Shown: positions 967 through 64,000 of the stretch, one piece after another
Layout of the letters: each line of letters starts with the position of its first letter
Numbering within the stretch: position 1 is the first letter of the stretch
Origin: Mesostigma viride
Lineage: Eukaryota > Streptophyta > Mesostigmatophyceae > Mesostigmatales > Mesostigmataceae
Direction: 5' to 3'
Length of the DNA stretch: 64,000 nt
NCBI GenBank assembly: GCA_009746045.1
Contig: RPFO01000448.1
Coordinates: 2,752,882-2,816,881, forward strand
Notes under the pieces: generated by a model
Database searches by the model: none
Told to the model about the DNA's origin: nothing
Seen by the model: the letters and a program-made list of their open reading frames with translations, nothing else
Translations under genes and position numbers: made by a program

Positions 967-3673
967 TCACCGTACTCTGGATGACTTGAGCTTGTCAGCG
1001 ATTTTGTCCAGTGCCGCCTGGTCCATCCCATCCTTGAACCGAAAGTTGTCGGGGAGGAACTTGCCTGCTGTTGCACGCTGGTGGACCACCTCCAGCTGCA
1101 AAGGGACGATGACAGAATAAGAACAATGGTACAAGTACAAGCACACGTACAAGCGAGTTGGGGATTAAAAGGGACCAAGTTAACAGCGGACTGATTGTTT
1201 GCAAAGGTAACGCTGTACCTATACTACTGTGGTATTTCGAACTGCATTGAAAGGACATCTGATAGTAGCATGGTACCGGGAACTGGTACCAAGTACCCTA
1301 CCAGTTCCATGAATAGATCACGGCATAGACACAAGGTCTGATGCGGCAGCAAGAGCTCAAGACAGGAGCTTGTTCAGGGCCGAAATTTCCTTGGCCATTT
1401 CCTCACAATGCCACCGCTGCTTGACGAGGATGTGTATATGATGATGGGGCCCAGCGGCAAGCTCATCCCGGCCCACCTTCGTTACCTTGTTATCTCATTC
1501 TCGTCCAAGTCACCTCATTCTTTCTGGTCATCAGGACTAGCCCACCCAGCTCTTCCTCCCAACTCTTTCCCTCGTCGCGCATGCTCTAAGGCAAGAAGGC
1601 CATTGCTGGCAGTGCTTGTTTCACCCACATACATTCTCACGCTTGTGCCACCTACACGCACCGCCAAGGAAGCAACAATCGACAGAACCGGGCAGCTGCC
1701 AGGAAAGGAGCGGTAGGGACTAGGGTTCCTGTCCTTACGGCCACGGCCCCAAGCCACCAACAGGGTCCATTTTGACAGGCTATCGACTTGCACGGCAACC
1801 GCTCGTCAGGCGTTTAAATGTCATACTATTATCTATTAGGCTGTCACCCAAACATATACAGTTATCCCCGCGTTAAGTTACGATTCTAAGGTTACGGCCC
1901 CGCGTTAACTTACGACGCCCCAAATGTTGGCAGCGTGTACCTCGCCGCCCACCTTTTGCAACATATCTGGCCGCAAAAATGGACTTCGAGGGACTTTGAT
2001 GATGCAGCTGGATCGGGCTTGACGAGAGCTATCGCTTGCCGTATAAAAAGTCCGTCAGAGGAGGAGGGGGTGGGCTGCTAGCCTAAATCTACCGCTAAGG
2101 TTAAATCCCCGCGTTAAGTTACGACGCCGAGAATTTGGCGGCGATCGTAACTTAACGCGGGGATGACTGTATCCTGTTCATAAGGCCGTCACCCAAGATA
2201 GTCCTATTCGCAGGGCCATCACCCCTGACACAACAAATTTATCACTCCTGACCTGCTTCACGATGGCCTCCCTATTTGTGAGGAGATCAACGCCCACCTG
2301 CTTCAGGATGGCCTCCCTATTTGTGAGGCGATTGCCCTCACCTGCTTCAGGATGGCCTCCACCGTGCTCTCGTGGTCAAAAAAGTCACACCCGGCGTGCG
2401 CGAGCTTGCCCCCCAGGAACATGAAGTACATGGGCAGCGCTGCAAAGTGGTACCGCTCCATCATCATCCGCCCTTCCGCCATGTCGGCCTTGACCATGCT
2501 GCGGCAGTAGACAGGGAACCAAGCCGCATGCATCACAAGCATGACCAGGAAAGTTGTTTAGTACGTGTTGGCTTGACAATGCTGCCGCAAGAGAACAGGG
2601 TGTTGCGGCATAACCAGAATGAATTGCAAGCATAAACAGAATGGTCATTCAGCTCGCGCCAGCCTTGACCATGCTGCAACGATGAAGAGAAGACGGGTGA
2701 CGTCGCGAGAGCAGCCAGAAGTGAGCAGAGTGTGAGTCCAGGCGCACTAGCACACATGGCCAGAATGATCATACAGCTCATGCACACATCCCCGAAATGG
2801 TTGAGCATACCATCTTATAGTAAGCCTGTGCACACATGGCCATACCGCAAGCTCATGCCGATGACATCAGGAAAATTGCAAACTTGGGATGGCCAATATC
2901 TTGATCGATGATCACAAATACCTCAGCGACAGACCCCTGTTGCCCTGGGATGGATTCAGCGCACTCACAAATCTGCATGACATTTGAAGAAAGGCACACA
3001 TCTAGTCAACCGCTCCCATATCAACAAGTGCTCCCAATCAAGCAGCTGCTCCTGTGCTAGCAACTGCTCCTATGTTAGCAAGTGCTCCTGCCTCCATGCC
3101 AGCAATTACTCCCTCACTACCAACTGCTCCCATGCTAGCAAGTGCTCCCATGTTAGCAACTACTCTCTAGCTTTCTCTGACCCACTGACAGCTGTGTGCT
3201 GTTGTGCATCTCTTGCGAGTCCTGCTTGCTAGCTAGAATAGGCAGTGAGCGGTACCCAGCATGAAGGGAGGAATGTGATACAGTTTACGTATACACACCC
3301 CCAGCAGCCCCTTCAGCTGGGCACAGCGACCCCTCATGGGAGAGTAGCCATTGCAAAGCGTAGCCGAACATGGCTTAGGAAAACCTAGAGCAGATAAGCC
3401 ATGAGGACTAAATACAACACAAAGCTAACATACGAAACGAGACTTGTCGGGGAATGAGGAGCAATCAGGGTCGACACAATGGGACGATCATCTCAACAGG
3501 CCATTAGAGGCCCATGCAAAGTAGCTGCCACAGATCGCACCCTCACCGTGCACTAAATGTCGGTTTGGCCGCCGTGGTTGCCCCACCAGCAGCGGGCATC
3601 TCTGCCTCTTGCGCCTTTCTCCTCTCCTCCAGCAGCTGCTGCAGCTGGTAGTTGGCCTGTTGCAGCACTGATT
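967..3673 (-). CDS. Thioredoxin-fold-like protein gene, partial at 5' end, three exons visible
   Basis: Three minus-strand exons have compatible phases: 3673-3547, 2498-2342 and 1095-967. The acceptors are GGCAG, CCGCAG and TTGCAG; the donors are GTGAGG and GTGAGG. Exon 1 encodes a coiled coil (LQQANYQLQQLLEERRKAQE). Exon 2 holds a stretch resembling the second half of a thioredoxin domain: VKADMAE, then a basic/aromatic helix, then ALPMYFMFLGGKLAHAG, where thioredoxins have a cis-proline strand followed by F-x-x-G-K. Exon 3 gives a charged helix ending KLKSSRVR and a TGA stop. No CxxC active site is seen, so upstream exons carrying the N-terminal half are probably missing. Splice joins and the thioredoxin assignment are inferences. 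The end of exon 2 and the following intron start are triplicated in tandem (about 2249-2350). Confidence 0.42.
1357..1485 (-). other. Short open frame with C-terminal helix, possible alternative last exon
   Basis: On the minus strand an open stretch ends HCEEMAKEISALNKLLS followed by TGA at 1359-1357. It lies in the last intron of the thioredoxin-like model and could be an alternative terminal exon or a separate gene fragment. The upstream acceptor is unclear. Confidence 0.22.
1859..2169. mobile_element. pogo/Tc1-mariner-like MITE with TA target duplication
   Basis: The element begins CAGTTATCCCCGCGTTAAGT and ends with the inverse (ACTTAACGCGGGGATGACTG). It is flanked on both sides by TA (1857-1858 and 2170-2171). 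Inverted repeats of about 26 bp differ at one position. The CAGT start and TA duplication are typical of pogo/Tc1-mariner families. Extra copies of the CCCCGCGTTAA motif at about 1900 and 2106 make an internal hairpin (2106-2164). It has no coding capacity. Confidence 0.8.
2250..2352. repeat. Tandem triplication of a 42-46 bp segment
   Basis: The phrase CACCTGCTTCAGGATGGCCT, with TATTTGTGAGG between copies, occurs three times. It includes the donor site of the thioredoxin-like exon. Confidence 0.7.
3010..3170. repeat. Imperfect 15-bp repeat (AGCAACTGCTCC-like)
   Basis: About ten degenerate copies of a 15-bp motif of the form TGCTAGCAACTGCTC. The frame through it is an artefact of the repeat. 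Nothing else is visible in 2500-3540 apart from repeat-like intronic sequence. Confidence 0.7.
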
Positions 3674-6779: not shown

Positions 6780-8480
6780 GGCCTCTACCCGAAGGGGGTT
6801 GTGAGCCAACGGCCGTTGGAATTGGAAAAACATTATCATATGCTTTTTATTCGTTTGATAGGGTGGCAAGCAGCCAGGATGTGTCTTTCATGCAGCTTAG
6901 TGGTGGCTATTACCATTTTTCTTCCAAGAAAGGCCTCCAAAAAATCTAGCTGAGCATAAACATGGGCTTCACTGGTTCGTAAGGCATCCACCCTTCCCAG
7001 AGGGGGTTGTGAGCCAACGGCCGTTGGAATTGGAAAAACATTATCATGTGCATTTCATTCGTTTCATTGGGTGGCAATAAGGCAGGATGTGTCTTTCATG
7101 CAGCTTAGTGATGGCTATTTACCATTTTTCTTCCAAGAAAGGCCTCCAAAAATCTAGCTGAGCATAAAGATGTGGTTGAATGGTTCGTAAGGCATCCACC
7201 CTTCCCAGAGGGGGTTGTGAGCCAACGGCCGTTGGACATGTGCATTTCATTCCTTTGAGTGGGTTGGCAATCAGCCAGGATGTATCTTTCATTCAGCTTT
7301 GTGGTGGCTATTACCATTTTTCTTCCAAGAAAGGCCTCCAAAAATCTAGCTGAGCATAAAGATGTGGTTGAATGGTTCATAAGGCATCCACCCTTCCCAC
7401 AGGGGGTTGTGAGCAAACGGCCGTTGGAATTGGAAAAACAATAAAATGTGCATTTCATTCGTTTCATTTGGTGGCAATAATGCAGGATGTGTCTTTCATG
7501 CAGCTTAGTGATTGTTATTACCATTTTTCTTCCAAGAAAGGCCTCCAAAAATCTAGCTGAGCATAAAGATGTGGTTGAATGGTTCGTAAGGCATCCACCC
7601 TTCCCACAGGGGGGTTGTGAGCCAACGGCCGTTGGACTCGAAAAACATTACCATGTGCATTTCATTCGTTTAATTGGGTGGCAATAAGGCAGGATGTGTC
7701 TTTTATGCAGCTTAGTGGTGGCTATTTACCATTTTTCTCCTAGAAAGGCCTCCAAAAAATCTAGCTGAGCATAAAGATGGGGCTTGACTGGTTCGTAAGG
7801 CATCCACCCTTCCCACAGGGGGGTTGTGAGCCAACGGCCGTTGGAATTGGAAAAACATTATCATGTGCATTTCATTCTTTTCATTTGGTGGCAGTAAGGC
7901 AGGATGTGTCTTTCATGCAGCTTAGTGATGGTTATTACCATGTGCCTTCCAAGAAAGGCCTCCAAAAATCTAGCTGAGCATAAAGATGTGGTTGGATGGT
8001 TCGTAAGGCATCCACCCTTCCCACAGGGGGTTGTGAGCCAACGGCCGTTAGACTTGAAAAACATTACCATGTGCATTTCATTCGTTTCATTTGGTGGCAG
8101 TAAGGCAGGATGTGTCTTTTATGCAGCTTAGTGGTGGCTATTTACCATTTTTCTCCTAGAAAGGCCTCCAAAAAATCTAGCTGAGCATAAAGATGGGGCT
8201 TGACTGGTTCGTAAGGCATCCACCCTTCCCACAGGGGGTTGTGAGCCAACGGCCGTTGGAATTGGAAAAACATTATCATGTGCATTTCATTCTTTTCATT
8301 TGGTGGCAGTAAGGCAGGATCTGTCTTTCATGCAGCTTAGTAATGGTTATTACCATGTGCCTTCCAAGAAAGGCCTCCAAAAATCTAGCTGAGCATAAAG
8401 ATGTGGTTGAATGGTTCGTAAGGCATCCACCCTTCCCACAGGGGGGTTGTGAGCCAACGGCCGTTAGACTTGAAAAACAT
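6780..8480 (+). repeat. 208-bp satellite, about 8.5 units, each with the CCAACGGCCGTTGG palindrome
   Basis: The palindrome recurs at 6806, 7014, 7222, 7414 (mutated), 7622, 7831, 8038, 8246 and 8454, a period of 207-209 bp apart from one 192-bp unit that lacks part of the A-rich segment. Units share CATTTCATTCGTTTCATTTG, TTCCAAGAAAGGCCTCC and TAGCTGAGCATAAAGATG. The period is not a multiple of three, so the open frames across it are not real genes. It ends about 40 bp before the ATG at 8522. Confidence 0.95.
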
Positions 8481-8521
8481 TACTTACGTATTACGCACGT
8501 GCCAATTGGCGCAGGGGAGGG

Positions 8522-9391
8522 ATGGCGGAGACGGGCGAGCTGGAATCTTCGACCCGCGCTGCGATTGCCTGCGTGGCAGCAAACGTACTTAACCGGGCTC
8601 GCGAGATCCACGGATGGGTACGGCAGCACGAGAAGCGCCTGGGTCGCCAGTTTGCGGTTTTGGTCGTGTATGACTCGTTCGCCTCAGTAGGACGACAGAT
8701 TAATCTCCAGTTGCTGGACATGTACTTCGCCTTGGCTGGCGGATTCTACAAGCCCACGCCGGCGGATCGGGTTCCACTCAATCGAGACGTCGAGTTTCGA
8801 CTTCTGGTGTCGTATGTCGGAAAGGTTGGGTGGGACCAGTGGGAGAAAGACCAGTGGGGGAAATTTCCAGACGCGAGTGAGGCGCAGCCGAGATTGACCG
8901 TATCGGCGAGAGTAGAGGGGGGGGGTTTGAAGGTTTCCATTTTACATTCGGGAATTCCGAGTACGTGAAATTGACGTTTTCACGGATGATCGTTCTCCCG
9001 GGGGTGGGAGGGCCGATGCTCGGCTCGCTTCCAAAGTGTTGCTCGAATCAGGCGTGCTCTGTGATGGAGGGTGTCCACCGCAAGTGCGGGGGTTGTCGAG
9101 ACGTCCGGTATTGTGCTGCCGAATGCCAGCGTGCGGACTGGGAGGAACACAAGAAGTGGTGTACCAAGTATCGTGAGGCGAGAAAGTCTCTCAGCACTAT
9201 GCACGGCGACGTTACAGACAGCTGGTCTGGTGTCAATTTGGCCGGACTTGTAATTCGGATGGGGGGTGAAGTGCATTTCAAGTTCAAAGGTGAAATGTTC
9301 AAGGTTTTTTGATGGGACTGAATCGTACCCAAGGGCGATTTGTGAGGCGATGTCCGCGCTGGGGGAACAGTACCCCTGTTCGACTGCGTGA
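8522..9391 (+). CDS. MYND zinc-finger protein, reading frame interrupted twice at homopolymers
   Basis: An ATG at 8522 opens a frame to 8968 (alpha-helical, unrecognised). A second frame, whose first ATG is at 8986, carries a MYND finger at about 9040-9170: C-C-x5-C, CGGCRDVRYCAAECQRADW, then E-H-x3-WC. The two frames join if the run of nine Gs at 8917-8925 had ten. The second frame stops at 9310-9312 after a run of six Ts; with five Ts it would continue 26 codons to 9391, giving a C-terminus (AICEAMSALGEQYPC) similar to that of the gene ending at 11409 (AVREVMYALGQEYKF). MYND fingers mediate protein-protein contacts. Both joins are inferences; they could be assembly errors or real decay. Confidence 0.6.
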
Positions 9392-9440
9392 GGGGAATGG
9401 ATTCTGCGACTGAAGGCATTTTGGGTGTGATTTTCTTGCG

Positions 9441-9666
9441 CCAACGGCCGTTGGAACTTGCAAATTAGCGTTTGATTTTCTTCGCACCCGGAAGTAGGGT
9501 GTGGTTTGCCACGTGGCACCATGGATGTAATTAATAAATGCATAATAAAACATTTTTCGTGCGCCAACGGCCGTTGGAGACTGAAAACTAGTGTGTGCTT
9601 TGTGCGCGTAATAAATCTTAAAATTCTTGTTGTTTTTTCAAGCCAACGGCCGTTGACGGTGAGAAA
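9441..9666 (+). promoter_or_regulatory. Intergenic module: three palindromes plus a G-box
   Basis: CCAACGGCCGTTGG-type palindromes lie at 9441, 9564 and 9653. A 12-bp G-box palindrome TGCCACGTGGCA (9507-9518) is followed by ATGGATGTAATTAATAAATG. The same ordered module recurs at 11434-11625 before the next gene. TGTAA is the usual green-algal poly(A) signal, so part of this may be the 3' end of the MYND gene and part the promoter of the next. Confidence 0.5.
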
Positions 9667-9715
9667 TGTATATCAAACGGTGTCGGTGGGTTGCAGATGA
9701 CGTTCTACAGGACGG

Positions 9716-10805
9716 AGTTAGGTTAATATTGTGCGGAAACCTTTTTGCCACTTGGGCTACTCAGGTTCCGCACAATATTACCGGCGATAACCACTCGCCG
9801 GACACTCAAGTTCACGACGTCGTGAACTTGAGTGTCCGGCGAGTGGTTATCGCCGGTAATATTGTGCGGAACCTGAGTAGCCCAAGTGGCAAAAAGGTTT
9901 CCGCACAATATTAACCTAACTAAAACCTAGCCTCTTGGGGCGAGGACGAATCACTAGGCTCGGAACACCCGTATGCATGAATATGATCGAATATAAGCAT
10001 CTCGTTGGTGCAAATATCGATATGAATATGATCGAATATGAGCATCTCCTTGGTGCGCATATGATTAGAGCCGGGTGCCAAATCGGAACGAATTATTCCC
10101 CCAAATAATCCGCTTCCGAGTGGATTCGAACCTGCGCCCCGCAAGGATCCAGGTCTTAGTTAGGTTAATATTGTGCGGAAACCTTTTTGCCACTTGGGCT
10201 ACTCAGGTTCCGCACAATATTACCGGCGATAACCACTCGCCGGACACTCAAGTTCACGACGTCGTGAACTTGAGTGTCCGGCGAGTGGTTATCGCCGGTA
10301 ATATTGTGCGGAACCTGAGTAGCCCAAGTGGCAAAAAGGTTTCCGCACAATATTAACCTAACTAAGACCTGGATCCTTGCGGGGCGCAGGTTCGAATCCA
10401 CTCGGAAGCGGATTATTTGGGGGAATAACTCGTTCCGATTTGGCACCCGGCTCTAATCATATGCGCACCAAGGAGATGCTCATATTCGATCATATTCATA
10501 TCGATATTTGCACCAACGAGATGCTTATATTCGATCATATTCATGCATACGGGTGTTCCGAGCCTAGTGATTCGTCCTCGCCCCAAGAGGCTAGGTTTTA
10601 GTTAGGTTAATATTGTGCGGAAACCTTTTTGCCACTTGGGCTACTCAGGTTCCGCACAATATTACCGGCGATAACCACTCGCCGGACACTCAAGTTCACG
10701 ACGTCGTGAACTTGAGTGTCCGGCGAGTGGTTATCGCCGGTAATATTGTGCGGAACCTGAGTAGCCCAAGTGGCAAAAAGGTTTCCGCACAATATTAACC
10801 TAACT
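9716..10805. mobile_element. Nested palindromic foldback element P-M-P-M'-P with 5-bp target duplication
   Basis: Ends are AGTTAGGTTAATATTGTGCG and its inverse. Flanks carry GACGG at 9711-9715 and 10806-10810. It contains three copies of a perfect 206-bp palindrome P (9716-9921, 10158-10363, 10600-10805) separated by a 236-bp segment M (9922-10157) and its inverted copy M' (10364-10599), which differ at one base by eye. The whole is therefore one large palindrome made of palindromes. All internal frames are mirror translations and no transposase is seen, so it is non-autonomous. The family is not recognised. Confidence 0.9.
10320..10399 (+). other. tRNA-like A-box and B-box inside the palindromic element
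   Basis: TAGCCCAAGTGG (10320-10331) resembles a pol III A box and GGTTCGAATCC (10389-10399) matches the B box exactly. The mirror copy gives GGATTCGAACC at 10122-10132 on the other strand. Stems around the T-loop do not pair well, so this is not a working tRNA. It may be a tRNA-derived pol III promoter. Confidence 0.35.
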
Positions 10806-11433
10806 GACGGAGGGGGGCGAGTGGATCAACTTGGAAGACAGGCTTCTGGGAGTGGTTAAGAGCGCGCTCAGGCTTCTGCCGGACATTAAGCTGGATTTTA
10901 TGCCCAAGGAGGGTGAAAGGTCTCTTTTGAGACCGGATGTCGCGAAGGCCGCGGCTCTTGTTTTCAATATCGAGGGTCGGGGACTCCCAAAGCCGACCGT
11001 AGAGCCATTTGAGGAGGTGCTTGTGAGGTGTGGTGCTATAAGGCCCTATGATCCATCAATACCCAGCCCAATTTGTTTTCAGTCGATCGATGCTGATGGT
11101 AATGAAAGTTGGATACCGATGGCGCGGCCATATGATAGGGGAGAAGGGTTTAAGGGTTTAGGGGAGGTGGGACGGTTCGAATGGGTCATCTTGAAGGACG
11201 GCAAGTACTTCAAGCATCACACTGACCTGATCATCGACCGGCTGTTCGTGTCTGCTGGAGATTGCATGTTCTGGTTGAGGGAATACGTGCATGAGTGGGG
11301 ACCCGACGGTGTTGACGAGTTTGAGAAAGCGGTTCGTGAGGTGATGTACGCGTTGGGGCAGGAGTACAAGTTCGAGTGCGTGACTGACGCGAATCGATTA
11401 TGCGACTGAAGTGTTGGGTGTGATTTTCTTTGC

Positions 11434-15738: not shown

Positions 15739-26875
<11,137 letters not shown>

Positions 26876-32147: not shown

Positions 32148-32640
32148 GTGCTGCAGAAATATGATAAAAACGCGCCGGTGACCTGTCGTGCATGTCGCTT
32201 TTCCAGCTACCTGTCTGCGTTCGAACGCAGACAGGTAGCTTTCTTTGCAAGTTTTTCCAGGTGTTGGTGCCAGTGCTTCTCTGTCGATATTGTTTCAAAG
32301 CCGGTTTGTTTATTGGCTGGGGACGACCCCAGAGCCGCCCGCCGTCACATGCACAAAACATGCCATATCTCGCTGGAGGCGTTCGGTTATTTACTGGAGA
32401 AAATCGGCCCGATCAGCGAGCCGAATCTCCAGACAATGGCGGGCGCGGGCTCCGGTTGGACGTGGTAAGACCCGAGCAAATGCTCATTGGTGCATTAGAG
32501 TGGCTTTCTCATAGCTGCGACTATGGTACCTTGGAGCGTGCATATGGCATCGCTTCAAACACGTGGTCCAAAAATGGGGAACGCCCTGGCATTCTACGAG
32601 AACTTGAAGATGCTTTCAACAGCAAACAGCAAGCGTAGGT
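32148..32640 (+). pseudogene. Harbinger-like transposase N-terminal remnant, frameshifted
   Basis: One frame reads CHISLEAFGYLLEKIGPI, like the F-R-M-S-x-E-x-F-x-x-L-L-x-x-L-x-P motif of Harbinger nucleases. After a frameshift around 32400-32455 another frame reads RPEQMLIGALEWLSHSCDYG, matching the following helix-turn-helix-like part (P-x-x-x-L-L-I-A-L-x-W-L-A-x-G). The DDE catalytic core is not seen; sequence passes into simple repeats. A partial duplicate of the last 50 bp follows (GACGCCTATGGTAACCTGGA). Confidence 0.55.
32205..32240. repeat. 36-bp perfect palindrome
   Basis: AGCTACCTGTCTGCGTTC followed by its exact inverse, centred on TTCGAA, inside the transposase remnant. Confidence 0.95.
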
Positions 32641-32714: not shown

Positions 32715-34004
<1,290 letters not shown>

Positions 34005-46531: not shown

Positions 46532-49500
46532 TCAGCTGCCCTGCAAACACAGAATGTTGTTCGCCATGGCCATCCTATACAGGAACCGCTCCAACTCAAG
46601 CCCGTGCGCCTCGCTGGCCGACCACTCCTCCCCCCCATCCTCCTCCACCCCAAACCCGTACAAGTCCACCCGCGTGCACAGCTCCGACTGGACCAACGCA
46701 AGCGCAGCTGAGAACCCAGGGCTCGCCTGCAGGGTCCCCTGGAAGATCACGTCCGTGTCGGCCGTGGCCACGGGGACCTCGTACTTGGCCAGCTTCTGGT
46801 ACAGCTCCGCGTAGTTCAGCGACCGCGTGATCGCCTGCAGCGAGAGGAAGGGGACGGGGGGCAGCTCCCCCCGCCCGGCTGCGTACCGCGCCGCAAACGG
46901 GGCGTCAAACTTAAGCGTGCCCAGCGGCATGCGCTGCTGCTTCCCGCCGCTATATAAATAGAACCGCGATGGTGGCACGTAGCGCTCAGGGGGGCCGAAC
47001 TGGGCCGTCGGCCACTCCGCCGTCTCCGGCGACGGCAGCTCCGTGACAAACTGGACCGACATCCTCGAACCGGCCCACGGCTCATGCCCAGGCGCCGGCA
47101 TCGGGCCGACCCGGATCACCGTGTCGTGGGCGTCGATCTCAGCGCCCTGGCGGGAGCCAGGGACCCCCCGCACGACCGCACACGTCCCAAGCGAACGCGA
47201 GCTGAGGTCGACCCCGTGGTAGCCCGCGCCTAGCTCCCCACATGCGCGCCGCGTGGCCTCGCACGACATGCTTCCTTCACCGGTATACCCGCCGGGACGG
47301 AGCAACAGATAGGCCGATCTAAGGTCCCCCTCGGTCATACCCTTGGGCTCAAAGGACCGCTGGCTGACGCGCCGCCCGGCCACAGAGGTGCGCCTCGAGC
47401 GGCGGCCGAACGCGCGCGCATCATTGAGTGATTTGGGCTGGGAGAGCTTCTGCTGTGGGCTGAACAGCCCCTCGCCCCCCCTACTTGACGGGGCAACATC
47501 GTCGGGGGCATGATGCTCAGGCAGGTCCATCAGCCAGCTGTGCTCCCGGTTGGGCACGCCGACCACCTCCGGCACATGGTGGTCCCCGAAGAAACTGGCA
47601 GCCGCCACGTCTGCCGCCGAACCATCCGCCGCCGCAAAGGAGTCCAATGGGACCACCCTAGGAGTATCCAACCCAACCCCTCCCGAGGGGGCAACATAGC
47701 CGCCACCGCCACTGCTGCCACTGTCGCCACTGCCGCCACCGCCGCCGGTGCTGCTGATGGTCATCGTGATGCTGGGGCTGGTGGTGCTTGTGGCAGGCAC
47801 AGGGAATGTTGCCGCGACAGAGGGGGTGTTGACGATGGGCGGCGCTATGGTGGGGGGAATTACAATCTCGGGTTGTGTGGGAATTGCCTCTGCTGTAGGG
47901 GTTACCGCTACAGTGACCACTGGGGTGCTGGCCTGCGACGGCTGGGTAGCAGCCCCCTTATTTTGGTCTCGATCGCTACCGGCCATCCCACTACTGTCAT
48001 TATCATCACTTCCCTCCTCTCCCTCCTCTTCCTCCTCCTCCTCCCTCCCTGCGACGGAGTGGATCGCCGCGGCTTGCGGCACCGCTTTCGGGCCGCCGCC
48101 ACCACCCCTGCCGACCCCAAACTTCTTACGCAGTCCCGACCCAGGGACATGCTTTGAGAGCCGATCCATGAGACCCCCCGCAACGCCTAGGGCCCCCCCC
48201 CCACTTTCCCCTCCACCCCTACCTGCATCCGCTGCCGTGGGTGGGCTCTTGAGCCAGTTCCCAAACACGCCCAATAACTTACGGCTCCGATATAGATTCA
48301 CCTCGCCCACATCGGCCCCCTCACCGGCGGGCGCGGCCTCTCCCCCAAGCCGGTCAATGATGCCATTTACCGCTTCCAGCATCGCCTGCAAATGCTCTGA
48401 CGAGTCATCCCCGCCACTGGCACCCGCCCCGGGGGACCCAAGCACCTGCATCAATGACGCGAGCGATGCCGCCCCTCCTACTGATGCCGCTGCTGATGCT
48501 GGCATCTGCCCCATTCCGCCCATTCCACCCATTCCGCCCATTCCGCCCATTCCGCCCATTCCGCCCATTCCGCCCATTCCGCCCATTCCGCCCATTCCGC
48601 CCATTCTGCCCATTCCGCCCATTTCGCTCATTCCGCCCATTCCGCCCATTTCGCCCACACCGCCCTGGCTCCCCCCAAGGCCACCCAGGCCAGCCCACAC
48701 ACTGCCCTGGACCCCGCCAGCACCACCCTGATTCCCCCCCGCGCCGCCCGGGCCTTCCCCCGCGCCCCCCTGGCCCACCCCCGCGCCATCCCATGCCAGA
48801 CCACCCTGCGCCACGACCGGGCTGCTCTGGCCTCCGGAACCCTCGCCCTCGCCCTTGCCCGCACCCTCGCACACCGTCCGAATGACGCACATGCGCGGCA
48901 CACTGAACTGGGTATCGCTCAACACCACCCCGACCATCGTGTTGGACACGATCCCGGGGGGGGGGATGACCACGCGGCAGGTGGTCGGGAGCTGGTAGCC
49001 ACCCCCACCGGCGCCTGGCCCCCCACCCGTACTATCGCCACCACTACCACCCGTCGCAACCCCCGCGTCCTCGTACAGATCGGACGTGTCTTCGGCGTCG
49101 CTGTCCCAATCCTTGTCCAACGCGGCCTCGATGATGCCAGGGTCACCACCACCGTCCGCAACACCCTCACCGCCGCCCTTGACCCGGGCGGGCGGGTTAG
49201 AACCGCCGCTTGGGCCCCCGCCAGCCCCCGCGTCAGAAAACCCGGACGACTCCCACACGGGCGTGTCCGTGGTTATGGGGCTGCCCTGGGGGGCGCCCAG
49301 GGTCCCTGGCCGCGACACGCCCTCTGTAGACCGTGCGGCCTCCGCGGCAGGCACCACCGGCGACGGCCTGCCTTCCGACAGAGCAGATGATCTGACTTCC
49401 GATACAGCAGAGCCGACAGGGGTTGGCGCCGACAGGGGTTGGAAGGCACCCTGAGGTGGATTGGCAGCAGGGAGGTTGCCGGTGCCGCTCGCTGTGACAT

Positions 49501-52500
49501 TATTCCACCAGCCGTCAGCACCGGTGGGACCGACAGGGGTTGTAGCCACGTCTGCTGGCAAGGACCCTGCCGCCCCAACCTCGAGACTATACCCCGTCCC
49601 TGCCCACCCAAACGCTCCGTGCAGTGCCTGCTGCGATGCCTGTTGCGGCGCACCTGCGATGCCTGTTGCTGTACTTGAGGCGCCAGTTGCAGCCGCCCCC
49701 GGCATGGGACCACCCTGCACACCGCCCGGGCCACCCTGGCCGCCGCCCTGGCCTGGACCAAACACGTTCCCCTGCCCTTGCCCCGTTACCTGCCCCATGT
49801 CCAGCCTCACCCCGACCCCCTGGCCAAACCCGGCCTGGCCCACCCCCTGGCCCACCCCCTGCCCGCTCCTCAGCTGCTCCAGCTTCTCCTCCAGACCCTG
49901 CAGCCGCTCTCGCAGCATCGCCTCGCGCTGCTGGCTCAGCAGCTCCTTGGCCATGTCCGCCTGCTGGTGCTGCATAGACATCATCAGCAGCTGCCCCTGC
50001 AGGTGCTGCTGCGCAGCCAGGACGTCCGCACCCGGCCCCAGCCCCCCCAGGCCCCCCAGGCCCAGGCCTGCCTGCGGGTAAAACCCCAGACCGCCCAGGT
50101 TCGCCACCGGTTGCTGGTAAGGCCCCCCCTGCAACGCCCCTGGGAGGTACGCGCCCACCCCCGGCCCCGGCTGCTGCCCCGCGTTGGCGTTCACATTATG
50201 ACCACCGGAAATGCTGGCCCCCGCCAGTGCCGCCGACAGTGCCGCTTGCTTCTCCTTCTCAGCCCTCAACTGCTCCACGAGCGACGACATCTCGCGCACC
50301 AACGCTGCAGACTGCGCGTCCTGGGTCCCTGGTGCGCTTGGGGTCGCACCTGCCCCTCCCCCTCCCCCCGCCCCTACCGGTGGCATGCGATCTTTCTTCG
50401 CCCCCTGAGACCACGCCACCTCGCCCGGCTGGCCCGGCTCCATGACCTCCGACTCGTCCTGCACCAAGAACGGCTGCTGCAGCTGCTGTTGCTGTGGCTG
50501 CCCCATCCGGCTATTCGCCTTCTGGTTCCGGCTATTCGCAGGGTCCAGGTTTCTGTTCACGGCCTGGTTCTTGCTGTTCGTCCCCGCCTGCTCGTCCGCC
50601 TCCCACATCCGCTCTAACTGCTCCAAGCGGGCATCCGCCTCATCCTCCTGCGCCTGCTGCAACAACTCCAAAAGCTGCGCCACCTGCTCCTCCGACTGCG
50701 CGGTCGGCGTGACGCTCCCCCCCCTGCCCTCCCCCACCCCTTGCTGCTGCTGCATTAATGCTGACTGCCGCTTGGACATTTTCTTTTCGTCCTTGCCAAA
50801 ACCCACCCCCCTGTCGCGCAGAAGCTGCCGCTGCGTGGGCGCTGCGCCCCTGCCCGGCGACAGCAAGCTCGCCAGGTAACCCTGGAAATCATCCAGGGGG
50901 GTGGAGGACGCTGCGGCTCCCCCTGGCCCCCTGGCCCCCGTCAACCCAACCCCCCCCTCCATGGCCTGCCCCTTACTTCTCTGTTTGAACGCCGCGAAGT
51001 CGCGCAGGACCACGTCGGCCATCGCATCCATAGGCACATTGTCGCCCTTGCTGGCGGATGCCCCCGCTGCCAGCAACGTCTGCAGCACCGTCGGCAGCTG
51101 GACGGTGTCCACCTTTAATCCGCCTGAACGTTGTGTAGCACGCGCGCTCGTCGGCCCCACGACCAACGCCCCCTCGTCAACGGCCCCCGCAATTATATCC
51201 CCCGATCCCGCCATACCGTCATTATTTCTCACGGCATCGCGCACCGACCTTTTGCCTGCGGCCGTTTGGGCGAGGCCAACCCCGCCCGCCTCCCCCTGCA
51301 CCTGTGCGGCCACCTGCTCCAGCAGGCGCGTCACCTGGCCCTTTGCGCGGCGTGTCTTGGCCGCGAGCGCGCGCGCATCTCCCCGGTCCCCTGCCGACAT
51401 GATCACCGCCGCGCCGCCGCCGCCCGTCGATGCATGGCTGCCGTCACCCGCCACCCCCAGCACAGCTTGCCATCGGGCGCTGATGGGACTCCCCCCCTGC
51501 ACTGAAAGGGTCCCGTCCCCGCCACTGGTCACCACCGAGAAGGGCGAGTCATCATTGCCCCCCCCATCACTCACAACGTTGCCACCGGAATCCCCCCCAT
51601 CACTCACAACGTTGCCACCGGAATCTCCGCTCCCCCTAGGGGCGCCAGCATTTTTGTCCCCACTGCTGCTACTGCTGCTGCTGCCTCCCTGCTCGCTGCC
51701 TGCCCCCCTGTTGTTCTTACCGCTGCTGGCATCGGCACGGATCTCCATCGCCGCGAGCCGCTCCACGATCTTCTCCATCACGCTCGCCGCCACCTCCAGC
51801 TGCGACGCGAGCGAGGGAGGGCCCGCATCCTTGCTGCCGGAACCAGCCTCGTTGCCAGAATCCTGGGAAACCTCGCTGCTAGAGGTAGGATCTTGGCCAA
51901 CCTCTCGGCTAGAGGGAGCATCTTGGGTAGCCTCTCGGCTAGACCTTTTTCTACTGGCGGACGGGCGGTCCCGCGCGGGAGACTCGCTGGCATCAGAAGC
52001 AGGGCGGGCGCGGGCGCGGGCGGGCGAACCAGGGGGCGCGTCCTGGGTGGGAGTCCCTGACCGGGGGGCACGGGAGGCGCGGGAGGCATCTGACCGGGCA
52101 CGGGGCTGTACCTCGGGGTCATTGGGCCGCTCCAGCTGCGACGCGAGCAAGGGAGGGCCCGCATCCTCGCTGCCGGAACCAGCCTCGTTGCCAGAATCCT
52201 GGGAAACCTGGCTGCTAGAGGTAGGATCTTGGCCAACCTCGCGGCTAGAGGGAGCATCTTGGGTAGCCTCTCGGCTAGACCTTTTTCTACTGGCGGACGG
52301 GCGGTCCCGCGCGGGAGACTCGCTGGCATCAGAAGCAGGGCGGGCGCGGGCGCGGGCGGGCGAACCAGGGGGCGCGTCCTGGGTGGGAGTCCCTGACCGG
52401 GGGGCACGGGAGGCGCGGGAGGCATCTGACCGGGCACGGGGCTGTACCTCGGGGTCATTGGGCCGCTTAAACTCTGGCTCGGATGCCCGCCGGGCGCTGG

Positions 52501-53098
52501 CGTCGTGAACTCGCTGCTGCCGTCGTTGGAGGGCGGCTCGACCCTGGCCGGTCTCCTGGCCGTCCTCGACGTCCACGTCGAACACGGAGTCACGGATGCG
52601 GGTTGCCGAGGTCCGCCTGGCGGAGGGGGCTCGGCCGGTCTTGTCGGAAGAGTAGGGTTTCTTGCTAGTCGGCTTATTGGAGACTGTTTCTCTTGTAACG
52701 TCCCGGCCGCCATCTGGACGTGTCTGAGCCTGTCGGCTCGGCCGCGAGGGTCTCTCTCTCGGCGAGGGCGCCGAAACGTAGACGTCCTCTCCACCACTGT
52801 CTCGTTCTGCAGAGGTTATGGTGTATGGTATCTTCAGAGAAGCGTCGACTCCACTTCCTTGTCGGTTGCCCTTCCATTCGCTGGCAGGCCCTGACTTAAT
52901 CGTGACAAAGGCATTGCTGTCACCGGCAGAGCCTGCATTGGCAGAAGACTCGTCGACAGAGTCCGAAAATAGAAGAGGCTGCTCATCCCTGTCCACCTGG
53001 ACATAGCCGAACAGAATTTGCGGCAATGTACCAAGGATGAACAAAAGGTACAATGCACGCAATGCCGCAACTTGGCGATGGGTGCCCATTGAACTCAT
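46532..53098 (-). CDS. GT29-family sialyltransferase-like glycosyltransferase with giant N-terminal stem
   Basis: A single frame of 2,188 residues. Residues 13-35 (LRALYLLFILGTLPQILFGY) form a type II membrane anchor, as in Golgi glycosyltransferases. About 1,900 residues of low-complexity stem follow: Ser/Arg/Pro-rich with a 112-residue tandem duplication, Gln/Gly-rich, a coiled coil (LLELLQQAQEDEADARLEQL), and a Met-Gly-Gly repeat (about residues 1480-1530). The C-terminal 230 residues carry GT29 motifs: L (CAVVRGVPGSRQGAEIDAHD then TVIRVG), S (SPGFSAALALVQSELCTRVD then LYGF) and VS (H-x4-E in AHGLELERF). Animal GT29 enzymes move sialic acid from CMP-Neu5Ac; algal homologues may use Kdo-type or other CMP-sugars, so the donor is unknown. 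Motif S lacks the usual P-S/T-T/S-G. GC-rich, intronless. Confidence 0.88.
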   Translation of the reverse strand: MSSMGTHRQVAALRALYLLFILGTLPQILFGYVQVDRDEQPLLFSDSVDESSANAGSAGDSNAFVTIKSGPASEWKGNRQGSGVDASLKIPYTITSAERDSGGEDVYVSAPSPRERPSRPSRQAQTRPDGGRDVTRETVSNKPTSKKPYSSDKTGRAPSARRTSATRIRDSVFDVDVEDGQETGQGRAALQRRQQRVHDASARRASEPEFKRPNDPEVQPRARSDASRASRAPRSGTPTQDAPPGSPARARARPASDASESPARDRPSASRKRSSREATQDAPSSREVGQDPTSSSQVSQDSGNEAGSGSEDAGPPLLASQLERPNDPEVQPRARSDASRASRAPRSGTPTQDAPPGSPARARARPASDASESPARDRPSASRKRSSREATQDAPSSREVGQDPTSSSEVSQDSGNEAGSGSKDAGPPSLASQLEVAASVMEKIVERLAAMEIRADASSGKNNRGAGSEQGGSSSSSSSGDKNAGAPRGSGDSGGNVVSDGGDSGGNVVSDGGGNDDSPFSVVTSGGDGTLSVQGGSPISARWQAVLGVAGDGSHASTGGGGAAVIMSAGDRGDARALAAKTRRAKGQVTRLLEQVAAQVQGEAGGVGLAQTAAGKRSVRDAVRNNDGMAGSGDIIAGAVDEGALVVGPTSARATQRSGGLKVDTVQLPTVLQTLLAAGASASKGDNVPMDAMADVVLRDFAAFKQRSKGQAMEGGVGLTGARGPGGAAASSTPLDDFQGYLASLLSPGRGAAPTQRQLLRDRGVGFGKDEKKMSKRQSALMQQQQGVGEGRGGSVTPTAQSEEQVAQLLELLQQAQEDEADARLEQLERMWEADEQAGTNSKNQAVNRNLDPANSRNQKANSRMGQPQQQQLQQPFLVQDESEVMEPGQPGEVAWSQGAKKDRMPPVGAGGGGGAGATPSAPGTQDAQSAALVREMSSLVEQLRAEKEKQAALSAALAGASISGGHNVNANAGQQPGPGVGAYLPGALQGGPYQQPVANLGGLGFYPQAGLGLGGLGGLGPGADVLAAQQHLQGQLLMMSMQHQQADMAKELLSQQREAMLRERLQGLEEKLEQLRSGQGVGQGVGQAGFGQGVGVRLDMGQVTGQGQGNVFGPGQGGGQGGPGGVQGGPMPGAAATGASSTATGIAGAPQQASQQALHGAFGWAGTGYSLEVGAAGSLPADVATTPVGPTGADGWWNNVTASGTGNLPAANPPQGAFQPLSAPTPVGSAVSEVRSSALSEGRPSPVVPAAEAARSTEGVSRPGTLGAPQGSPITTDTPVWESSGFSDAGAGGGPSGGSNPPARVKGGGEGVADGGGDPGIIEAALDKDWDSDAEDTSDLYEDAGVATGGSGGDSTGGGPGAGGGGYQLPTTCRVVIPPPGIVSNTMVGVVLSDTQFSVPRMCVIRTVCEGAGKGEGEGSGGQSSPVVAQGGLAWDGAGVGQGGAGEGPGGAGGNQGGAGGVQGSVWAGLGGLGGSQGGVGEMGGMGGMSEMGGMGRMGGMGGMGGMGGMGGMGGMGGMGGMGGMGGMGQMPASAAASVGGAASLASLMQVLGSPGAGASGGDDSSEHLQAMLEAVNGIIDRLGGEAAPAGEGADVGEVNLYRSRKLLGVFGNWLKSPPTAADAGRGGGESGGGALGVAGGLMDRLSKHVPGSGLRKKFGVGRGGGGGPKAVPQAAAIHSVAGREEEEEEEGEEGSDDNDSSGMAGSDRDQNKGAATQPSQASTPVVTVAVTPTAEAIPTQPEIVIPPTIAPPIVNTPSVAATFPVPATSTTSPSITMTISSTGGGGGSGDSGSSGGGGYVAPSGGVGLDTPRVVPLDSFAAADGSAADVAAASFFGDHHVPEVVGVPNREHSWLMDLPEHHAPDDVAPSSRGGEGLFSPQQKLSQPKSLNDARAFGRRSRRTSVAGRRVSQRSFEPKGMTEGDLRSAYLLLRPGGYTGEGSMSCEATRRACGELGAGYHGVDLSSRSLGTCAVVRGVPGSRQGAEIDAHDTVIRVGPMPAPGHEPWAGSRMSVQFVTELPSPETAEWPTAQFGPPERYVPPSRFYLYSGGKQQRMPLGTLKFDAPFAARYAAGRGELPPVPFLSLQAITRSLNYAELYQKLAKYEVPVATADTDVIFQGTLQASPGFSAALALVQSELCTRVDLYGFGVEEDGGEEWSASEAHGLELERFLYRMAMANNILCLQGS
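48500..48655 (-). repeat. Met-Gly-Gly coding repeat in the GT29 gene
   Basis: Nine-base units (CCGCCCATT on the plus strand) repeated about 15 times encode GMGGMGGM with a few E, S, R and Q substitutions. Confidence 0.93.
51794..52465 (-). repeat. 336-bp in-frame tandem duplication in the GT29 gene
   Basis: 51794-52129 and 52130-52465 are almost identical, 112 codons each. Units start (minus strand) RPNDPEVQPRARSDASRASR. Differences such as AGCGAGGGAGG versus AGCAAGGGAGG are few, so the duplication is recent or homogenised. Confidence 0.95.
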
Positions 53099-54305: not shown

Positions 54306-57300
54306 ATGGTCTCGTTCAGTAGCCGGATGATCGCTGCGGCGCGCGCCTTGGAATCAGAGTCGGAAGAAGCCATCATCTATGATCCCTTGGCAGAGGAACT
54401 GGCAGGGCCCACGGCCATGAAGCAGGCGCGGCAGCGCGTCACAGAAAGGAGCCGTGCGGGTAAGGCGGCCCGGTACGGAGACTCGTCCATGCCAACATAA
54501 GCGCCCTTGGCAATTTAAGAGTACTGCCTCTTGTATTACCTCTTACGTCGCGGCATGCCCATTTTTTTTTCTGACAGAATCGGAAGCAAAATGTTTAGAA
54601 ACGCTCGTTGTGCGTGAAGCTCTGGCTCATCTTCGTGCCACGTCATCTCCGCCATTCATCCTTCTGCCCGATCTTGCCTTCCGTATTCCTGTTCTTATGT
54701 AAATTGTCCTTTCCTCATCACCATTCATCCCCTTGTCGGACACCGGTGCCCACCCTTCCATCATCACATGACTGCGTTACCCCGTTTCTGTTTGTCACCC
54801 TGTATTTCACCCTGTTCATGCAGGTCACCCCATTTAGGTGCTTGCCACCCATTAAGACAACACCAGTCCTCGGCATTATCTTCGCCCTGCGCTTTTGTCG
54901 CATTGATGTGTTGTCTCATTGATATGTTGTCTCATCGATGTGTCGTCTCATTGATGTGTTGTCTCATTGATATGTTGTCTCATTGATATGTTGTCTCATT
55001 GATGTGTTGTCTCATTGATGTGTTGTCTCATTGATGTGTTGTCTCATTGATGTGTTGTCTCATTGATGTGTTGTCTCATTGATATGTTGTCTCAGTGATG
55101 TGTTGTCTCATTGATGTGTTGTCTCATTGATATGTTGTCTCATTGATGTGTTGTCTCATTGATGTGTTGTCTCATTGATGAGTTGTCTCATTGATGTGTT
55201 GTCTCATTGATATCCCCTTGCTCCTCACCGGTTAATCCCATCAAATGGACAGCAGCCCTGTAGCACATACCGTTGCCCCCCCCCCCCCCCGTTCATCCAA
55301 TCAGACAATCCCACCCCTTCTTTCATCATCACCCCATCAACCCACCCACCCCTGACCACGTCATCCCACTGCTCGCCCCCCTACCCCATCCTCCCCAACT
55401 ACCAACTACCAACCACCAACCACCACCACCACCACCACCACCACCACCACCACCACCACCACCACCACCACCACCACCACCACCACCACCACCACCACCA
55501 CCACCACCACCACCACCACCACCACCACCACCACCACCACCACCGCCGCCGCCGCCGCCGCCGCCGCCACCAGGCGAGAAGCGTCGCGCCGGCATCGCCA
55601 TCCGCACGCGGTACCTGGACGATGCGCTCGTGGAGGCGGTCACTGTGCAACTGACGCCGTCCTGTGCTACAGTGACCACTACCACAGTGCACGAGGATGA
55701 TGTGACTGCTGCCACTGGGGGTGGCGACAGTGGTTCCCAGGGGCATGTTGGGGCATCAGAACAGGCAGCAGGGAAGGAAGCATCGCCGCCCCCTCTGCCC
55801 AGCCAGGTGGTCATCCTGGGTGCAGGGATGGACTCCAGGGTGTACCGGCTGCCCCGCCCCCCCAACTGCCTTCCCAGAGAGCGCACAGCGGCCAATAAGG
55901 TCTCAGGGGGAGCCGGGGCGGTAGCGGGTGCTAGCGGATACGCGGCAGCAAACGGTGGCGCCGTGGGCGGCGATACTTTCAAAGAATTGGGTGGTGCGAC
56001 CGATGATGGTGCTACGAAGACAGGTTTGCCGGATGCCAGAGTGAGTTTTTCAGTCGTAAAAAATGCTGAGGTGGCGTTCCACCCGATCGCGGACCTGTTT
56101 GAGGTTGACCAAGCGGACGTGCTGCGTGCCAAGGAGGCCACGTATGAGCGGCTAAGGGAGAAGGGGGTCATGCCCCCACTCTCGCTGGCGCAACGACGGA
56201 CGGTCATCGCGGCCAACGTGGAGGAGGTGGACACCCTGGAGGCGCGCCTGGTGGGGGGCGGCGTGCGGTTTGCGGAGCCGGTCGTGTGGCTGCTGGAGGG
56301 CCTGTTGGTGTAAGTGCGGGAAAAGTATCAACAGTTTAGTAGTATAAACAGTAGTACCAGTAGTTTTGTCAGTATAAACAGTAGCGCCTGTATAGCTGTC
56401 AATTATTTGTGAGCATTAATTAGTAACATAACTCCGTTGGTAGTACATGTAGCACATATCCCGGAGAAGGGGCATATGGCTTTTAATACATTCTGGGCTA
56501 CTTCCTGCAAGAGTGGAATGTAAGCAACACTTGCTCTAGGTGCCTCAAGGACACCGGCACCACCATGCTGTCTCGGGTTCAACCCAGCTAAGGGGATCCC
56601 GGCATGGGGGAGGAAGATTGTGAGCATCTAAGGAAGAATCTTCCTCCCCTGTCTATTGTACGTGTGTTTATCATCATATGTGTGTCCCCCCTCCCCCCCC
56701 CGGTTGGTCCTTGTTCTTTGGGGCTCTGCCCTACCCTGTTTTCAGTGGGACATGAGCACCTGTCAGTGTCTAAGGGTGGAAAGGCCACCCGTCGCAAGGG
56801 TGGAGACGACCGCTGTCACGACCGGGGTAGTTGTGATGGGGGACCGGTTGGCTGATGCGTGCATTGCCCTCCCCTGCTGGTGTCAGTGTGCTCCGGGTTC
56901 TGCCCAGCCGTGTGAATGGCGGTGTTTCCCTACCGGTTCATGTAATTTTGTGGGGGGCGCTGCCCTCCCCTGTTGTCTGAATGACTAATAACTAATAACT
57001 GTGCCTAGACCCCCTGTTGTGTTCACAACTAATAACTGTGCGTAGACCCCCTGTTGTCATCATAACTAATAATGTTGCTTAGACCCGCTCTGTTGTGTTC
57101 ATAACTGATAATTGTGCTCAGACCCCTTGTCGGCACAACTGTGCTTAGACCCCCTCTTGTTGTAAGTGCGTCTCGGGAGGGTCTCCCCCCTGTGCATGTG
57201 TGTGTTCCCCTTTTCGTGGGTGTATGGGTGTCCACTCTTCCCTCCGATCGGTTCCCGTTTGATCAGTCTCCCAGTCATCGTCGGTGGGATGTAGGGCTCT

Positions 57301-62159: not shown

Positions 62160-64000
62160 TTCTTGTTCTGATGCATCGCATGCAGTCCAAAGAAGAGAGA
62201 GGGGGTGAATGCGGTGTTCAAACTGAGCTGGGACCACTGCAACTAGGTCGGCCAGCAGCATCTGGATGTAGTTCATGGCAGGCTTACCTAGCTTTCTAGG
62301 AATCAGTCCTTGGGGCCAGGTTCTTTGACCCCAAGACCAGGCGAGCAAGTCGCGCCGCCCGCCTGGAGGGTGCCCTATGCGCGTTGAAAAGTACTATGTT
62401 ATCTCACGCCGCACACACGTCCCCGCCAGCCTCCCCCCAACCCCCTGCCGACACCGCCGGTCCCCGGCGCCCCCTGCTGGGCCAACGCCGGCACCACTCG
62501 CTGCGCATCGCAACCTACAATGTCCGCACCCTGCCCGGGGATGCCCCCCCGCGGGCCAACGAGCTTGTCCACTACTGCCGCCTATATGGCATTGATGTGC
62601 TTGGGGTCCAAGAGCACCGACGCTCCTTTGAGGGCCCCGTTCAGCGTGTCACCCTCGCACTACAATGGCAACTGCTGTGCGGCCCGGCGCATGCACCGGG
62701 GCAGGGAGGAGTGGGCCTGCTGTGCTCCCGGCCCCACCGCTGCCGCCCAGCTCGTGGACCACAAACTTTGCTCGAATCGGATCCTTCAGTGCACTTTCCG
62801 CTCCCTCATGAAGGACGGACCCCCATTATGCTCTCGGTAATTGTCGGATATGCCCCACATGCTGGGCACCCGGCCGAGGACTGCGCAGCGTTCTTCAACC
62901 AGTTGCTCGACATAGAGAAACAGATCCCACGTCAATACATCGTTGCCATCTTGGTGGATGCCAACGCGACCCTGCCCGTGGGCCGCGGGGGCTGCATGTA
63001 TGCGCCGCGCCTAACCGATAGCAATGCCAACACCCCCCTACTTGAGCAACTGCTCACTGAGGGGGACTTGACTGCTGCATGCCAATACGCTTTTTGCTAA
63101 ACCGCCTGATGCACTAGTGACCTTTGTGGGCACCATGCGCAGGGCGGCTGGCTCAATGCTCCCTCGGCGGCGATGTGTATGCTTGGACTACATACTTGTG
63201 CGCAAGTGCTGGCGCTCTAGCTTCCGTCATCGATGCCCGTACGCTGACCACCCCCAGTGTCGCATCGGATCATCGCATGGTCACCGCAACCTTGCGCCTA
63301 CGTCTTCAGGCCCCTGCGCGCCGCCGCCCCCGGCCCCGCCCTGACTGGACCTGCTTATTACGCCCCGTCCGTGGGCGCAGGGAGAAGTGGTCAGCGGATG
63401 AGTCTGATACGCCGCGATGCAATCAGGTCTGCCTTTGTGGACGCGCAACCTTTGATGTACCTGGACGCAGATCGCGGTGTAGATCTCACGCCACCCTACG
63501 AACTGTTCATGCGATCGGTGGAGCTTGGCTCTACTGTAAGCTTTTCCCCGAGCAACTGAACCCCGCGCCCGACCAGCCCCGCTCTACCTGCGCGACGCCC
63601 GGGTGGTTGCCGCCCGGCTGGCGCTAGCGCAGGCCCGCCGCCGCGGGGAGGACCTGTACCCGTACCAGGAACGGCTTACTCAAGCATATACTGCCGCACA
63701 TGCGGAGGAGGTGGAGACACTTGCCGCCGAAATCAATCGCCACACGGCCGCCAACCAGCACAAGGCGGCCTGGCGCTCTCTCGACCGTCTCACCGGACGC
63801 CGGGAAACGCAACGGGCTGACATCCCAGGCACCCCCAGTGAACGCCTTGAGATTTGGTTCAGCTCCCAGGCCAAACTATCAGGGGCCCCTGGCCCGCCCC
63901 CCCGCTTGACCCCGCTGCAGCTGCACGCCCTGCGGCCAGCCGAGGCGGCCCCATTGAGCCCCCGCAGGCGCCCACCAGCGAGACGGACTACCTGGTCCCA
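62160..64000 (+). pseudogene. LINE ORF2 5' half: AP-type endonuclease and linker, frameshifted, runs off window
   Basis: From about 62500 the EEP/AP endonuclease motifs appear in order: LRIATYNVRTLPG, IDVLGVQEHRR (catalytic Glu), GGVGLLCS, VIVGYAPHAGHP, AILVDANATLPVG and, after a stop at 63098 and a frameshift, SDHRMVTATLRLRL (catalytic Asp-His). From 63582 an open frame reaches the window end with ARVVAARLALAQARRRGEDL and WRSLDRLTGRR, the usual spacer before the RT. The upstream part (62160-62330) is shared with 36775-36920. Disruptions indicate an inactive copy. Confidence 0.8.

Follow-up and report, generated by a model that had tools for sequence, protein, structure and literature searches.

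A nested palindromic transposon family in the streptophyte alga Mesostigma viride whose arms evolve in concert

Genomes are generally regarded as unstable hosts for long perfect palindromes, and PMC1925063 likewise describes such palindromes as unstable. The window, a 64-kb stretch of Mesostigma viride DNA on contig C1215 of the assembly, contains a 1,090-bp element that reads as a palindrome composed of three shorter palindromes, which raises the question of whether such a structure is itself a mobile unit and of how its arms come to be alike. Comparison of the window with itself confirmed the layout that had been proposed from the letters alone (the sequence-only reading), in which a palindrome, P, is separated by a spacer, M, and its inverted copy, M', in the order P-M-P-M'-P. 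The features of the element are as follows.

9711 to 9715, no strand: left copy of the target-site duplication GACGG, directly adjoining the element
9716 to 9921, no strand: P1, a 206-bp perfect palindrome of two 103-bp halves, h and h'
9716 to 9741, plus strand: terminal inverted-repeat tip AGTTAGGTTAATATTGTGCGGAAACC, with its mirror at 10780-10805
9724 to 9780, plus strand: SL1, a stem-loop of 57 nt in half-palindrome h, folded as DNA and present in all six halves
9781 to 9801, plus strand: SL2, a stem-loop of 21 nt in h, with the stem CCGGCGA / TCGCCGG
9922 to 10157, plus strand: M, the 236-bp spacer of the left arm, with two 41-nt direct repeats inside, 45 bp apart
10158 to 10363, no strand: P2, the central palindrome and the dyad of the whole element
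10364 to 10599, minus strand: M', a 236-bp inverted copy of M with one mismatch
10600 to 10805, no strand: P3, the third palindrome
10806 to 10810, no strand: right copy of the target-site duplication GACGG, directly adjoining the element

P1, P2 and P3 share one sequence, which reads the same on both strands. Once M' is reverse-complemented, it differs from M at a single site (10092 / 10429), in agreement with the one base counted by eye, and this pair is the only mismatch between the 1,090-bp element and its own reverse complement; the flanking GACGG noted in the same reading was likewise found on both sides. The inverted arms are 545 bp long with 0 nt between them, so that inverted repeats span most of the element, and these terminal repeats meet at the centre because what moves is an inverted dimer of 1,090 bp, P-M-P-M'-P. 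Six tips are present in the window, compared with a mean of 0.00 in 100 shuffles. The longest other perfect spacer-less palindromes in the 64 kb measure 36 bp (32205-32240) and 30 bp (at ~45.4 kb), the latter being a TTAA-type microsatellite. When folded as DNA, the half-palindrome h (103 nt) gives z = -7.6, with 0 of 200 shuffles equally good, and in several diverged copies one stem pair of SL2 is altered on both sides. The only reading frames of at least 80 aa that overlap the element encode 82-93 aa and all run through P; no transposase gene is found inside the element among the listed frames, the longest of which is 93 aa.

The element lies within a host gene, the two parts of which are:

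9697 to 9715, plus strand: opening codons of the interrupted host gene (MTFYRT...), with the ATG at 9697
10806 to 11409, plus strand: remainder of the interrupted host gene, with a listed frame of 192 aa at 10831-11409

The right flank carries on the gene in the same frame as the start in the left flank. Once the element and one GACGG are removed, the flanks read MTFYRTEGGEWIN, which is the start of the intact paralogue P0001, and the insertion therefore breaks the gene after six codons. Judged from this match, the empty site is seen in P0001. The interrupted gene (9697-11409) belongs to a small family, for which only three relatives were found, all named Mesvir1, and a Pfam search with its 192-aa frame gave no match at E up to 0.1. 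The window insertion (9716-10805) is repeated on a second contig as L029 (C1423:23827-24916), with identical flanks and sequence; L029 and the window copy are haplotype or segmental duplicates.

The surrounding DNA is eukaryotic in look, with long satellites and microsatellites. Very long simple repeats extend over ~4.5 kb (TCCTTG, 16719-21185) and ~1.2 kb (CTCA, 32842-34001). A short palindrome, CCAACGGCCGTTGG, recurs at 6793-8482, 9426-9655, 21194-21768 and 22981-23556, where it is located between small plus-strand reading frames and in tandem arrays with units of 46 bp and ~208 bp. Pfam matches in the window include:

8965-9312: MYND finger
46532-53098: sialyltransferase (GT29), towards the end of a 2,188-aa frame
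55273-56313: leucine carboxyl methyltransferase
62384-63100: endonuclease/exonuclease domain

The assembly (439.9 Mb, 2,243 contigs) was searched with the first 20 bases of the tip AGTTAGGTTAATATTGTGCGGAAACC, and conservation in these bases consequently stems in part from the selection of hits. At up to 2 mismatches the pattern matched 493 times on the plus strand and 511 times on the minus strand, and the reversed-pattern control matched 0 times. Loci were chosen from 100 listed tip places of the 1,004 and from 40 scored places of 685 candidates, the latter set being biased to young copies, and 60 loci (L009-L068) were fetched, some of which represent one place twice. Target duplications were examined in 51 entries, of which 5 repeat an insertion, leaving 46 distinct insertions; copies with incomplete ends (L024, L026-L028, L065-L068) and repeats of insertions (L030, L038, L040-L042) were set aside, and no duplication was found at the incomplete ends of L024, L026, L027 and L028. 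A target duplication flanks 45 of the 46 distinct insertions and is exactly 5 bp long in 43, the other two being one of 6 bp in a C-run and one of 13 bp in a tandem repeat. The sole insertion lacking a duplication is the truncated copy L048, whose right end was placed by hand. The duplicated sites are varied, with a weak symmetrical preference for GCWGC. The genome-wide search that the sequence-only reading had proposed thus returned many copies bearing their own target duplications, and the prospect it had raised of an isolated sequence with neither further copies nor an empty site did not materialize. The element is a transposon, as that reading had called it, and its copies form a real family of mobile elements. 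Beyond this genome, P patterns had no match in viral contigs or prokaryote genome contigs, the whole element had none in phages and P-M-P had none in plasmids; a neighbouring 413-aa frame had no match in viral contigs.

Among the locus layouts, P-M-P-M'-P is the recurrent form, and the transposing unit is this dimer. Other forms include a P-M-P monomer (L018, 3133-3779, 647 bp, duplication CATGG; duplicated in L057), a lone, shortened P of 175 bp (L022, duplication TCGAC), the longer form P-M-P-M-P-M'-P (L050, 1,538 bp, duplication CATGC), a second longer form with two M' in succession (L064, 1,399 bp, duplication GAGCA), and internally deleted copies. Every P repeats in both orientations, and recombination between P's could therefore derive these other forms from the dimer. 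At L061, two complete dimers (1001-2088 and 2153-3240) lie 64 bp apart with the separate duplications GGTGC and GGCCG, possibly as a result of a local second hop. At L021 (413-851), two P's lie 27 bp apart; the segment between them combines the beginning of M with a near copy of the left-hand flank and looks like filler DNA from break repair.

The symmetry of the arms was compared across 26 full-length dimers of 1,087-1,090 bp, obtained from 35 loci after removal of 9 repeats of the same insertion, with shortened, interrupted, monomer and longer copies kept apart. Exact palindromes account for 13 of the 26, and one perfectly palindromic sequence is common to seven (L015, L031-L035 and L037, with L031 as the reference). 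L047 differs from the window copy at 9 sites. L059, L060 and L062 differ from it at 19, 19 and 21 sites, with 2 further gap columns each, and all three are still exact palindromes, carrying h44A>T, h101G>A and h102A>C in six of six halves. Variants of M that occupy both arms in some copies are M142G>A, M171A>G, M175T>G, M189C>T and M227T>A, and mirror-paired variable sites number eleven (h44, h48, h57, h59, h101, h102, M142, M171, M175, M189 and M227). Variants within P are present in both halves in 71 of 80 cases and in one half in 9, which indicates that the arms evolve in concert; variants in M occupy both arms in 8 cases and one arm in 6, so that M is less uniform than P. In elements whose three P's are not all alike, the halves within each P mostly still match. 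Twenty-one of 35 half-palindrome patterns are partial, and in these 29 pairs are full and 9 are half, compared with a mean of 31.8 half pairs when the patterns are shuffled among the six halves; none of 200,000 shuffles gave 9 or fewer, a figure that takes related copies and neighbouring sites as independent and is thus a description rather than a strict probability.

Whole P's within one element differ at some site in eight of the 26 copies (L013, L016, L044, L045, L052, L053, L054 and L056), so that symmetrising is not obligatory at each transposition; in three of these, L013, L016 and L054, the differences are confined to the centre sites h101/h102, where the alignment is less sure. The one-arm variant of the window copy, M171A>G, is the change found in both arms of L036, which points to exchange or conversion over a one-step remake. 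Among older copies, L022 has changes of its own and L026 an inserted base of its own, each in both halves of P. Half-to-half identity within one P is 98.9% in L026, 92.0% in L028, 94.7% in L022, 89.3% in L065 and 100% in L009; the mean P identity between elements is 93.5%, and two of these five older P's (L028 and L065) fall below it. The halves of L028 and L065 are thus less alike than elements are on average, so that old copies are not kept symmetrical. The near-perfect identity of the window arms had been ascribed to either very recent formation or strong gene conversion, and both apply: the single mismatch between its arms marks the window copy as young, and concerted evolution of the arms is seen across the family.

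These features probably describe a non-autonomous, foldback-like DNA transposon that is moved by an enzyme encoded elsewhere and made symmetrical by hairpin-templated repair or conversion between arms. A transposase or integrase would bind the tip AGTTAGGTTAATATTGTGCG and cut with a 5-bp stagger. The dimer may have originated by inverted duplication around a P, when a hairpin-capped or folded-back end was copied through. During replication or repair a single strand, either of P alone or of the entire unit, could fold on itself, so that a mutation in one arm would appear as a mismatch in the hairpin stem and be corrected to symmetry, and conversion between P's and between copies would contribute. 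The spacer-less P should fold most readily, in line with its greater uniformity compared with M.

Neither an autonomous partner nor a transposase turned up among the places examined, which cover 100 of the 1,004 tip places. The tip pairs of L009 (8.6 kb) and L010 (8.45 kb), considered as autonomous elements, proved to be P-M-P monomers with long inserts, each in one half of a P, that by eye look like copia-type retrotransposons (gag zinc knuckle, integrase, reverse transcriptase/RNase H). Inspection by eye marks L026 as an old copy that has taken two more insertions, L028 and L067 as old copies surrounded by simple-sequence repeats, and the lone tips L066-L068 as diverged copies in which no transposase-like frame was recognised. 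M is unconvincing as an inverted-repeat element of its own, since the match between its ends is 59% over 44 bp (E 2.5); an inner hairpin of M matches at 74% over 38 bp (E 0.035). Each half of P contains CAATATTAC (9773-9781 and its repeats), which fits NANTATTAC, the origin nonanucleotide of CRESS viruses. The match lies off the hairpin apex and 5-bp duplications do not suit such an origin, and it is probably due to chance. The host is a streptophyte alga, and the element therefore offers a lead to a transposase that makes 5-bp duplications in the plant lineage.

Motifs of RNA polymerase III (Pol III) promoters were sought with the general consensus sequences for the A box and the B box, and the matches are:

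10320 to 10339, plus strand: two Pol III A-box consensus matches, with starts at 10320 and 10329, both in the right half of P2
10389 to 10399, plus strand: a strict B-box consensus match (GGTTCGAATCC) in M'
10596 to 10599, plus strand: the first TTTT run past the B box, a putative Pol III stop at the M'/P3 junction

The A boxes in P2 start 60 and 69 bases upstream of the B box, and A-box matches recur in the other P's. The B box has a mirror on the minus strand (10132-10122), and these two are the only strict matches in the 64-kb window. The B-box string is present in seven of nine older or variant loci scanned and absent from L066 and L067, the fetched part of the latter matching only the first 178 bases of M. 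In copies with h44A>T, the A box at 10320 would lose its first T and that at 10329 would be unaffected. At the level of motifs, this arrangement suggests two divergent small-RNA (Pol III) units in the element. No tRNA was detected by ARAGORN or Rfam; the 27 matches that Rfam returned at E up to 10 were for the most part to miRNA families of hairpin shape, located on P, and none reached the gathering score.

The symmetry could be accounted for by a recent burst from a few perfectly palindromic masters, with no active upkeep of the arms. The sequence shared by seven of the 26 dimers accords with such a burst, as do several one-arm changes that resemble ordinary post-insertion mutation and the drift between halves in two of the five older P's. 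A burst alone is nonetheless unlikely, given that the eleven sites listed above are each mirror-paired in at least one copy and that the older L022 and L026 behave likewise; a master would have to gain each change in both arms, and therefore some symmetrising step acted repeatedly. A bolder proposal, which is quite unlikely, is that the element moves as a self-paired single-strand hairpin with a stem of up to 545 bp, which would be copied and repaired to symmetry and then inserted with a 5-bp stagger by an integrase; the nested palindromy at three scales would be the copying format, and the two putative Pol III units would diverge outward from the central palindrome. The element might also descend from a hairpin replicon, copied outside the chromosome from terminal hairpins in the manner of a parvovirus, of which a monomer, an inverted dimer and longer forms then integrated. 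Its layout recalls a dimer replicative form with a common middle terminal palindrome, monomers (L018) and longer forms (L050, L064) exist, and every half of P has inner stem-loops. A target duplication of constant 5-bp length, however, indicates a cut-and-join enzyme, no replication protein was seen, and the longer forms do not strictly alternate (M, M, M' in L050 and two M' in a row in L064), as would be expected from unequal exchange between P's, which makes such an origin very doubtful.

An assembly or short-read polishing artefact is a highly improbable source of the arm identity or of the palindrome as such. For the published Mesostigma assembly, Canu was used to assemble PacBio reads and Pilon to polish the result with Illumina reads, and the reported long-read N50 was 11.2 kb; 150-bp reads are blind to differences between arms, and polishing may have evened out some arms if the assembly analysed here is the published one. 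Against an artefact, the layout occurs in 26 distinct full-length insertions with differing flanks and, where tested, their own target duplications, and the N50 is ten times the element length. Polishing should also homogenise copies, yet the variants are not the same from copy to copy, nor from P to P within a copy, and this variation among the P's of one element indicates that polishing is not the main cause of arm identity. A compound of independent insertions, in which a 206-bp palindromic element was inserted three times around M, would be in keeping with the lone P of L022, 175 bp long and flanked by its own duplication. That history is hardly credible, as the inner P-M junctions lack duplications in the loci examined and are constant in dimers except for one base in L011/L012, the outer duplications enclose the whole unit, and a lone P can be produced by recombination between P's. 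LTR retrotransposons, including the miniature TRIM type, have TG...CA ends, a primer-binding site and an internal region in one orientation. The 5-bp duplications, the short repeat at both ends and the P-M-P monomer could be read as such an element with P as its LTR, but the ends are AGTTAGG...CCTAACT, M is present in opposite orientations within the dimer and the tRNA scans were empty, rendering a TRIM-like origin extremely improbable. A non-autonomous, foldback-like DNA transposon with symmetrised arms is the preferred reading.

In this family the transposing form is a perfect palindrome of 1,090 bp, itself composed of three perfect 206-bp palindromes, and variants arise mirror-paired. The family is therefore well suited to studying the means by which long palindromes in DNA stay perfect, and its 1,004 tip matches, together with subfamily markers that fill all six halves of some copies, make the rate and scale of arm homogenisation, and the copies concerned, measurable.

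The sequence-only reading knew of no described family with the P-M-P-M'-P layout, and none was found here: no palindromic or nested-palindrome transposon of this layout was encountered in the openly licensed literature searched, which includes the available portions of PMC1925063 and PMC10111430. MITE-Hunter and other repeat finders were used in the Mesostigma genome papers (PMC6947507, PMC7027972), and no word beginning with 'palindrom' occurs in their main texts. Non-autonomous DNA transposons and MITEs resemble the Mesostigma element in having no coding capacity seen, terminal inverted repeats, a uniform target duplication and many near-identical copies, whereas the Mesostigma element is longer (1,090 bp), is palindromic over its whole length and within each 206-bp unit, and makes a 5-bp duplication. 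As for a tRNA-derived SINE in the M part, strict matches to the Pol III box motifs are present, and ARAGORN and Rfam recognise no tRNA. Transib elements make 5-bp duplications and have a CACWATG-like tip (a CAC-type heptamer), and hAT elements have the tip CAGNG. The Mesostigma element shares its duplication length with Transib, but its tip is AGTTAGG and not a CAC-type heptamer. The hAT5 DNA transposons also make 5-bp target duplications (PMC12730594, in the part available) and differ from the Mesostigma element in the same respect, as AGTTAGG is not CAGNG.

Foldback elements, such as Galileo, FB and Tetris of Drosophila and Tm1 of root-knot nematodes, are similar in that modular inverted repeats fill most of the element; the Mesostigma element, however, has no middle region, and its arms are themselves built of perfect palindromes. 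Galileo in D. willistoni generates target duplications of 7-8 bp (PMC4168063, in the part available). The duplication in Mesostigma is 5 bp and thus departs from the Galileo type, of which a P-superfamily transposase is also characteristic. Parvoviruses have terminal palindromes with inner stem-loops, a dimer replicative form, a replication initiator and linear DNA with hairpin ends. The Mesostigma element is like them in its inverted dimer with a common central palindrome and in its terminal palindromes with inner stem-loops, and unlike them in its 5-bp target duplications, its many chromosomal copies and the lack of any replication gene seen. The arms of large sex-chromosome palindromes are kept alike through arm-to-arm gene conversion. 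There, as in Mesostigma, paired arms evolve in concert, but sex-chromosome palindromes are few, huge and fixed, whereas those described here are many short mobile copies without a spacer.
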